This document shows positions 21,238-22,363 of a stretch of 64,000 nt of DNA, one piece after another. This DNA is from Halorhabdus sp. BNX81 (GTDB lineage Archaea; Halobacteriota; Halobacteria; Halobacteriales; Haloarculaceae): the NCBI RefSeq assembly GCF_029229925.1, contig NZ_CP107254.1, forward strand, positions 1,984,001 to 2,048,000, read 5' to 3'. Position 1 is the first letter of the stretch. Every line of letters begins with the position of its first letter. The translations under genes were made by a program, and so were the position numbers. The notes under the pieces were generated by a model. It ran no database searches, was not told the origin of the DNA, and saw nothing but the letters and a program-made list of their open reading frames with translations.

Positions 21238-21264
21238 CAATGGCCTACGCCCAGGGAAGCCATC

Positions 21265-21269
21265 TTTTT
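21265..21269 (+). terminator. oligo-T after the small HTH gene
   Basis: T5 in CATCTTTTTCG, 28 nt past the stop at 21237. It is a plausible archaeal terminator at the border of the repeat-rich region. Confidence 0.4.
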
Positions 21270-21340
21270 CGTCGTCGGGTGTCCTCGCTCACTGCGTTCG
21301 CTACGGGCACCGCGTGGCGACTTCGTCGCCACGGCATTCA

Positions 21341-21364
21341 GTTGCGGGCCCATGGGCCCGCAAC
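21341..21364. repeat. 24-bp perfect palindrome
   Basis: A gap-free palindrome with arms GTTGCGGGCCCA and TGGGCCCGCAAC. It belongs to the hairpin array but lacks the usual loop. Confidence 0.8.
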
Positions 21365-21387
21365 CCTCTCCTTGAAAAACATGGGTG

Positions 21388-21425
21388 AAAAAGACCGCCT
21401 CCGCCGTCTTCGACGGCTCCGGCGG
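21388..21425 (-). terminator. hairpin followed by T5 on the minus strand
   Basis: Read on the minus strand, a GC-rich imperfect hairpin (arms CCGCC/GGCGG outside and CCGTC/GACGG inside, loop GAA) is followed at once by TCTTTTTC. It would stop transcripts coming from the tRNA-Gly direction, so the array between 22090 and 21388 may be transcribed as the tRNA trailer. Inference from structure only. Confidence 0.35.
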
Positions 21426-21432
21426 TGAAATC

Positions 21433-21487
21433 CCTCACTTCGCCCGTCTTTCGAGCCTCGCCTCACTTCGTTCGACAAGACGCCGGC
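21433..21487 (-). repeat. array unit 1 (tRNA-distal)
   Basis: Read on the plus strand: a TCACTTCG-type box, CGTCTTTCGAGCC, a hairpin with the TCACTTCGTTC loop, then GACGCCGGCCGGGAG. The same order of blocks recurs at 21676-21738 and, on the other side of the tRNA, at 22217-22275. Confidence 0.6.
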
Positions 21488-21675
21488 CGGGAGTTTCCCG
21501 AACGGAGTGAGGGAAACGTCGATAGACGAGCGAAGTGAGTCTATCGGGAGTGAGCAAACGCGAAGCGTTTGCGATCTACGGGCGGCGTCCCGCCGAGCAC
21601 ACGAGGCGGGACTCGGGAGCTGTGCTCCCGGCGCATCGAATGACGACTGAAAGGAGGAATGAGATGCGCCGAAAG

Positions 21676-21738
21676 ACTCACTTCATTCGTCTTTCGAGCC
21701 CTGGTTCACTCGCTTACGCTCGTTCACCAGGACGCCGG
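21676..21738 (-). repeat. array unit 2
   Basis: Second copy of the block order seen at 21433-21487. It carries CGTCTTTCGAGCC and GACGCCGGCCGGGAG unchanged, while the enclosed hairpin has a different stem (CCTGGT/ACCAGG at 21700-21705 and 21726-21731). Confidence 0.6.
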
Positions 21739-21793
21739 CCGGGAGTGAGCGGATTCTCCGAATCCGCGAACGCCGAACGACGCGAGCGTCGTT

Positions 21794-21808
21794 CGGAAAT
21801 TGAACCCG
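21794..21808 (-). repeat. tRNA-Gly T-arm fragment copy
   Basis: On the minus strand reads CGGGTTCAATTTCCG, a one-base variant of the T arm of the nearby tRNA-Gly. It is not followed by a CCGGCGC acceptor strand, so it is a fragment and not a gene. Confidence 0.55.
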
Positions 21809-21903
21809 ATGCCAGACGTGCTCGCTCCGCTGAGCGCGTCTGCCGTGATTCAATTCCCTCGTACCGCATACACGGCCCTCACGAATTGTTCGGGCCGAGA
21901 GAT

Positions 21904-21924
21904 GCGCCGGCCGGGAATTGAACC
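21904..21924 (-). repeat. tRNA-Gly 3'-end fragment copy
   Basis: On the minus strand, 21 nt identical to the T-arm and 3' acceptor strand of tRNA-Gly(TCC), from GGTTCAATT through CCGGCGC. No 5' half accompanies it. It pairs with an inverted GGGAATTGAGCC copy (21969-21980 region) around a hairpin, giving one long nested foldback. Confidence 0.75.
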
Positions 21925-22020
21925 AGAGCCAGACGGTCGCTCACTTCGTTCGCGCTGCGACTGGCAGGGCTCAATTCCCGCAAAACGCATTTGCGGCTCG
22001 CGGTTTGCTCGCCGCAAAAT

Positions 22021-22090
22021 GCGCCGGCCGGGAATTGAACCCGGGTCGAGAGCTTGGAAGGCTCTTGTCATACCACTAGACCACCGGCGC
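22021..22090 (-). tRNA. tRNA-Gly (anticodon TCC)
   Basis: 70 nt cloverleaf on the minus strand. The acceptor is GCGCCGG/CCGGCGC, the D arm GTC...GAC, the anticodon stem AGAGC/GCTCT with loop CTTCCAA (anticodon TCC), and the T arm CCGGG-TTCAATT-CCCGG. CCA is not encoded. The flanks are unusual: the 5' leader and 3' trailer consist of hairpins and partial copies of the tRNA ends. A TATA-like CCTTAACG on the minus strand lies about 260 nt upstream, near 22345-22352; nothing AT-rich is closer. Confidence 0.96.
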
Positions 22091-22216
22091 TCGTTCACTG
22101 CGTTCACTCGCGCCGAGCATCGACGGACTCCGTCCGTCTCAACACCGGCGCGCTCGTCACTTCGCTCCTCGCGCGCCGAGGATCGCAAATCCTCCGGATT
22201 TGCTCACCACCGGCAG

Positions 22217-22275
22217 ACTCGTTTTGCTCGTCTGCCGAGCCTTGCCTCACTTCGTTCGGCAAGACACCGGCGCTC
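22217..22275 (-). repeat. array unit 3 (on the 5' side of the tRNA)
   Basis: Same block order as at 21433-21487, slightly diverged: TCGTTTTGCTC loop, CGTCTGCCGAGCC, hairpin CTTGCC/GGCAAG (22241-22246 and 22258-22263) with loop TCACTTCGTTC, then GACACCGGCGC. The last block equals the start of the tRNA-Gly acceptor (GCGCCGGTG on the minus strand). Confidence 0.55.
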
Positions 22276-22363
22276 GACTGCAACGGGACGGGCACACTTC
22301 GGCCCGTGTCGAACCCGCGTTCGCATCCGGACGTTATCCAGCCCTCGTTAAGGGTGTTTCCTT

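Follow-up and report, generated by a model that had tools for sequence, protein, structure and literature searches.

The hairpin array around the tRNA-Gly(TCC) gene in the window, which is the whole 64,000-nucleotide stretch analyzed, may consist of stacked units from a single haloarchaeal element family located at tRNA 3' ends. On our favored reading, to which we assign a probability of roughly 0.5 with insertion included, these units are small non-autonomous elements that would insert at, or be lost from, tRNA 3' ends, duplicate 22 nt of the target, and be recognized in the form of DNA hairpins. The units have a regular anatomy, a strict association with tRNA genes, and arms cognate to the local tRNA. 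They are spread across the class, they are exactly present or absent at certain sites, and near-identical cores occur at different tRNAs with rewritten arms.

The crowding of hairpins reported in the preliminary description is real. At positions 21260-22290, we found 18 non-overlapping perfect hairpins with a stem of at least 6 bp, compared with 4.5 on average and at most 8 in dinucleotide shuffles. Stems of at least 7 bp were found in 14 hairpins (shuffle mean 1.3, maximum 5) and stems of at least 8 bp in 11 (0.38 and 3), and the window averages 5.6, 1.8, and 0.6 hairpins at these cutoffs per stretch of equal length. The motif GARCGRAGTGA occurs six times in the window, always within the array, whereas 0.23 copies would be expected in the whole window and no more than 2 were seen in any of 100 shuffles. 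The motif positions listed earlier hold in part: the one at 21678-21688 is a one-base variant (GAATGAAGTGA), and three exact copies with imperfect stems (21463-21473, 21941-21951, and 22157-22167) had been omitted. The tRNA-Gly(TCC) gene was called correctly, and among Rfam 15 families at the gathering score, the tRNA alone matches within the array. We rejected known RNA families as the identity of the modules, as these gave chance matches only. The preliminary description missed that the hairpins belong to larger modules at tRNA 3' ends, which contain inverted and direct copies of the cognate tRNA. The array comprises one intact and one degenerate module, several short-copy units, and 5'-side units that bear the tRNA 5' end instead, as follows (R1 is our covariance model of hairpin B):

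22020..22090, minus strand: tRNA-Gly(TCC) gene, the array anchor (ARAGORN and Rfam RF00005, 70.2 bits)
21903..22019, minus strand: module 1, intact (hairpin A, inverted T-arm copy, hairpin B, direct 3'-end copy), with a 22/22 cognate copy at +95 and an R1 score of 80.1 bits
21990..22018, minus strand: hairpin A of module 1, with an 8-bp stem and the GA-type cap GAGC-AAACC-GCGA (DNA fold -10.1 kcal/mol, z -2.9)
21970..21981, minus strand: inverted copy of tRNA nt 54-65 (anti-T) of module 1, assigned by position and the cognate rule at variable nucleotides
21914..21980, minus strand: hairpin B of module 1, with a GA cap at 21941-21951 (covariation; R1 80.1 bits, E 1e-18, this sequence being one of the 26 used to build R1)
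21903..21924, minus strand: direct copy of the last 22 nt of the tRNA, module 1 (22/22 identical)
21785..21902, minus strand: module 2, degenerate (R1 32.5 bits), with hairpin A at 21873-21897, hairpin B at 21796-21859, and a terminal copy of 17/22
21731..21767, minus strand: short-copy unit, with a C(GGA)G triloop hairpin at 21749-21767 and a T-stem/acceptor-only copy at 21731-21745
21479..21612, no single strand: further short-copy units, with a partial acceptor copy at 21479-21493 (minus strand) and plus-strand capped hairpins at 21493-21517, 21520-21546, 21554-21572, and 21587-21612
22122..22271, minus strand: upstream units, in which GCCGGTG copies (tRNA 5' end) at 22143, 22208, and 22265 alternate with hairpins at 22122-22138, 22185-22203, 22211-22237, and 22241-22263
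21261..21417, no single strand: recurrent element of another kind (CTTTTT..GAAAAA plus triloop hairpins) at the left edge of the array, with similar stretches after other tRNAs

Both tRNA-Gly genes examined have hairpin units on the 5' side too, joined via copies of the tRNA 5' end (GCGCCGGTG), at 22122-22271 of the window and in the 5' flank of L035.

We read the flanks of all 41 tRNA genes and found a recurring order: tRNA end, hairpin A, inverted copy of the T loop and T stem, hairpin B, and direct copy of the last ~22 nt. These units are mostly 98-160 bp in length and contain no genes. The direct copy is at least 21/22 identical for 19 of the 41 tRNAs, while this occurs in 4 of 1640 non-cognate pairs. 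Across five genomes from three families, a cognate copy was found within 300 nt 3' of 19/41, 10/30, 11/30, 8/30, and 14/30 tRNAs, with non-cognate copies in ~1% of pairs and 0-1 cognate copies upstream. The inverted copy (12 nt, tRNA nt ~54-65) tracks the variable positions of the tRNA, namely nt 57 (12/12), nt 59 (10/10), and nt 62 (14/16), and its match to the tRNA fades past about nt 65. In a shorter class of units, a hairpin is followed by a copy of the last 12-14 nt only (cognate 20/191 versus 10/5958). One apparent pattern, in which the inverted copy tracked the tRNA and not the neighboring direct copy (34 versus 12), was discarded as it shrank to 2 versus 1 once indel-bearing copies were excluded. 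Many direct copies carry a one-base T-loop insertion (TTCACAATCC or TTCAACATCC for TTCAAATCC) that recurs across tRNAs and genera (L173, L182, L185, L190, and L060).

The 11-nt sequence that had been described as a loop is itself base-paired, as seen from its covarying inner R-Y positions. In 62 strict caps from modules, 3 of the 11 positions vary and the rest, which the strict pattern fixes, have zero entropy; stem positions carry 1.2-1.9 bits each. Two of the variable positions covary (G-C 34, A-T 23, G-T 3, A-C 2), and the third, the N of a GNA triloop, is unconstrained (GAA 29, GGA 17, GTA 10, GCA 6). A looser pattern that leaves the loop free is still dominated by GNA, and its inner R-Y pair is A-T in 50 caps, G-C in 47, G-T in 7, and A-C in 4. 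Given the R-Y covariation and the GNA variation, the 11-nt loop therefore reads as a structured cap, whose architecture is a stem, a tandem G.A mismatch (GA/GA), two base pairs, and a GNA triloop. That stems differ around a constant sequence is generally true, with the 62 caps flanked by 50 different 6-mers, and it is indeed pairing rather than stem sequence that is conserved: stems shift from one Watson-Crick pair to another with almost no G-U steps.

The second class of hairpins proposed earlier does have 3-nt loops, and most of these are the C(GNA)G triloop already seen in the cap, here carried by full stems. Of the three-base-loop hairpins with a stem of at least 8 bp near tRNA genes, 45/73 have C(GNA)G on one strand, compared with 3/27 in background DNA, and RNA-type UUCG and GNRA tetraloops showed no enrichment near tRNA genes. 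The RNA version of the GNA mini-hairpin is probably much weaker than the DNA version. On G-C stems, GNA and GNNA loops form DNA mini-hairpins of known extraordinary stability, such as d(GCGAAGC), and the module cap contains a C-G-closed GNA that is often exactly GCGAAGC (PMC4686876). The C(GNA)G mini-hairpin is a physical motif and not an element, whereas in modules it closes stems of variable sequence and follows a tandem G.A.

In the whole 2.83-Mb genome, GARCGRAGTGA occurs 52 times and the reversed pattern 7 times. The motif clusters by tRNA genes, with 22 of the 52 copies within 600 nt of one (1.0 expected). A scan of haloarchaeal genomes identified CGARCGRAGTGAG in 290 of 292 genomes of the class, commonly in 10-40 copies (0-3 for the reversed control); genome G268 contains masked stretches. 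With R1 (E < 1e-3), we found matches 3' of 26 of the 41 tRNA genes in this genome. In a background sample of 464 kb, made of 20 × 20 kb of the genome plus the window, the only matches at this threshold were two in the window array and one at 1783726-1783781, after the tRNA at 1783483-1783557. A 24-mer core gave 25 matches in 84,980 prokaryote species, in Halobacteria only, in genera including Haloarcula, Halorientalis, Natronomonas, Halorubrum, Natrinema, and Halobacterium. Of these, 24 are located immediately 3' of a tRNA gene, and 17 are accompanied by a cognate copy of at least 19/22. The sole core without an intact tRNA behind it (L188 at 2227) adjoins a decayed tRNA-Phe end. We discarded a REP/MITE-like dispersed repeat or transposon because the stems differ and confident hairpin B matches in the 464-kb sample are found only 3' of tRNAs, and the earlier view that ordinary dispersed repeats do not explain the array thus stands.

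Next, we compared modules between sister species. In 39 tRNAs orthologous between two congeners, 14 had no module in either, 15 had a module in one only, and 10 had modules in both, of which six reach a best identity of at least 85%. At one exact empty site with intact flanks, G079 has the tRNA followed by CTATACCACC and G000 has the tRNA, the module and copy, and then CTATACCACC. A second exact empty site, in which the tRNA is followed by TACCACCTTT, is found in G050. At the tRNA-Gly array, one whole upstream unit is without a counterpart in the congener G050; between G000 and G050, this unit and most downstream units were gained or lost. These presence/absence events with a duplicated tRNA end are unpolarised, as insertion and loss look alike. 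About 100 nt downstream of tRNA-Gly in G050 (L131), an A+T-rich stretch of ~0.9 kb replaces the downstream array seen in G000.

Cores with at least 85% identity were found at different tRNAs in 44 pairs, 20 of them inside one genome. In these near-identical cores, the direct copies match their own tRNA at 21.2/22 and the partner's at 14.4/22; the inverted copy is weaker (10.1/12 versus 8.8/12). As to stem swaps between close strains, for which the preliminary description proposed to look, some shared hairpins keep their stems between sister species, and the diversity lies mostly between modules rather than within one hairpin over time. For example, in the hairpin GACGGAC-gga/gca-GTCCGTC, only the middle base of the GNA differs between sister species. 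The module of the tRNA at 2268706-2268776 (L045) is 100% identical in three congeners (G050 L154, G079 L298), which suggests a recent transfer or conversion.

In the mechanism that we propose, a unit would insert exactly at the tRNA 3' end, either duplicating ~22 nt of the target or recombining through such a duplication. The cap (tandem G.A, R-Y, C-G, GNA) would be retained since the tRNA-sense strand would have to fold as single-stranded DNA or as a cruciform, while stems would be free to vary, with pairing alone counting. Arms would follow the local tRNA by target duplication and hairpin-templated copying, and the first candidate for the enzyme would be a tRNA-specific tyrosine integrase supplied in trans. 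Four points are our inference: which way the events ran, that cores moved from one tRNA to another, that DNA is the form involved, and which enzyme acts. Recombination between the 22-nt repeats could just as well have produced the exact absences by loss, and the strong sense bias of the caps would also fit a role of the transcript. More tentatively, and at somewhat less than even odds, the modules may represent a new class of genetic element, in which a mobile structured core gains inverted and direct copies of the host tRNA 3' end as arms via a hairpin intermediate of single-stranded DNA that the GA/GNA cap marks.

We also considered the possibility, which we judge unlikely, that the modules are functional 3' trailers, where the tRNA transcript enters them, RNA hairpins with the GA cap terminate transcription, prevent read-through, or direct 3' processing, and selection keeps the pairing and the cap. 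In favor of this reading, module caps lie on the tRNA-sense strand in 108 cases and on the antisense strand in 1, and as this holds for tRNAs of both chromosome strands, the tRNA sets the direction. Sense folds are also more stable than antisense folds as RNA (p = 5e-9 and 6e-4), though the G.A caps alone can cause this difference. Elsewhere in the genome, some caps precede T-runs (GAAGCC-cap-GGCTTCAGCCTTTTT), and hairpins in Haloferax volcanii are found upstream of 503 RNA 3' ends, and one of these hairpins terminated transcription at 59% (PMC7237163). However, trailers would not be expected to be gained or lost at 15 of 39 orthologous tRNAs between two congeners, with 14 lacking any in either; termination has no need of cognate arms, and a tetraloop preference is absent.

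Covariation in hairpin B also argues against trailers. In alignment A1, 93.1% of cells are paired, 13/25 pairs changed on both sides, and 50 cells have double-sided changes versus 11 in shuffles; in helices 2-4 there are 38 double changes and 1 one-sided change, though 16 of the 26 rows were picked by the exact core, and the covariation is to that extent weaker evidence for helix 2. In the same genomes, the G-U share is 2.2% in tRNA acceptor stems and 4.6% in T stems; the low G-U content of hairpin B is less telling, as G-C-rich RNAs carry few G-U pairs anyway. The fixed anti-T/copy columns contain 69 G-U and 37 A-C, with edge positions mixed in. An RNA-only reading based on G-U bias was set aside: MFE-based G-U counts ran the opposite way (4.1% in sense and 6.5% in antisense), with the caps as a confounder. 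Tandem G.A pairs are stable in RNA as well, which counts against a DNA-only reading. With modest numbers and a partly preselected alignment, the evidence leans towards complementarity being kept at the DNA level, via copying or via selection on folded single-stranded DNA; folding of the sense-strand RNA and a transcript role are possible.

It is improbable that the modules are a purely mutational product, in which replication template switching and repeat-mediated duplication and deletion act at palindromic tRNA 3' ends and hairpins persist as palindromes self-correct. The direct-inverted-direct order of the tRNA copies is a possible output of template switching, stems change from Watson-Crick to Watson-Crick pairs, and repeat-mediated deletion is known in Haloquadratum (PMC3119063). 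This process would not account for a hairpin B core and internal-loop motif that are conserved class-wide (AG..GCAGC invariant, GACCGTCT near-invariant) and found only by tRNAs, for cores that recur at different tRNAs, or for constant bases in the GNA cap that exceed what pairing alone requires. For copying or template switching seeded at the loop, as first suggested, nothing shows such seeding. Very improbable are scars of larger integrated viruses or plasmids, with internal deletion at att sites leaving short remnants and a tRNA 3'-end duplication: a 22-nt tRNA duplication does bound a Haloquadratum prophage (PMC3119063) and partial tRNA copies 2.2 kb away exist (G160), but such remnants would share neither a ~50-nt core across the class nor a cognate inverted copy, and we rejected carriage by viruses or plasmids as the viral, phage, and plasmid collections searched gave no match to module sequence. 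The G160 copy, which comprises 43 nt of tRNA-Gly at this 2.2-kb distance (G160:C1:3981359-3981401), is probably the far end of an integrated element.

We found no description of tRNA-copying modules in searches of the open-access literature. Integron attC cassette arrays keep their structure while stem sequence varies, fold in a strand-specific manner, and form arrays. By analogy, the modules may be likened to them in all three respects, though modules have a tRNA anchor and no cassette genes. Integration of the casposon/Cas1 type would be expected to give a target duplication at the tRNA 3' end together with terminal inverted repeats; modules have the duplication, their inverted copy is internal rather than terminal, and there is one cas1 gene per congener genome. 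Intrinsic RNA terminators would have a sense-strand hairpin followed by a T-run at a transcript 3' end, and the module hairpins are oriented in the sense of the tRNA. The Y1 (TnpA) transposase PF01797 is absent from G000 and G144 and present in 5 other congeners. IS200/IS605-derived PATEs were discarded, as G000 has no Y1 transposase and modules have 22-nt direct repeats where no target duplication is expected. Integrative viruses and plasmids with tyrosine integrases target tRNA 3' ends precisely and duplicate ~22 nt of the tRNA there (PMC3119063, PMC8371274); modules share this site and duplication, with insertion and loss indistinguishable. In contrast to these elements, modules are 100-160 bp with no gene, form tandem stacks, and carry an inverted cognate T-arm copy, with one core serving many tRNAs. 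An integrase gene of their own is absent, the units of ~100-160 bp being too short for a gene. Haloferax RNA-3'-end hairpins also lie downstream of genes in a haloarchaeon, but the accessible sections of their description contain no loop motif, tRNA copies, or modules (PMC7237163). Finally, Haloquadratum MITEs, SMRs, and PATEs are likewise short, palindromic, and non-coding, with species-specific insertions, but as portrayed in the available text of PMC3119063 they show no link to tRNA 3' ends and lack cognate arms.

Between 27 and 47% of the tRNA genes examined in five haloarchaeal genomes precede a unit with a near-exact cognate copy. Each genome offers dozens of orthologous sites, and at many of them one sister species has a unit that the other lacks; this is a replicated system in which one can ask how an element rewrites its arms to match a target and whether the stability of DNA hairpins is selected in a chromosome. 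The modules are also relevant to archaeal tRNA 3'-end maturation, integration hot spots, and mis-annotated tRNA fragments. Beyond the modules of several tRNAs, we observed a second recurrent element, CCACCTTTTTACTTCGTCGGG-hairpin-CCACTCCTCGCAAAAATCTGGACCAAAAACG (3' flanks of L037, L039, L060, and L071; G281 L271), and a variant of it is located at the left end of the window array, at 21261-21400.
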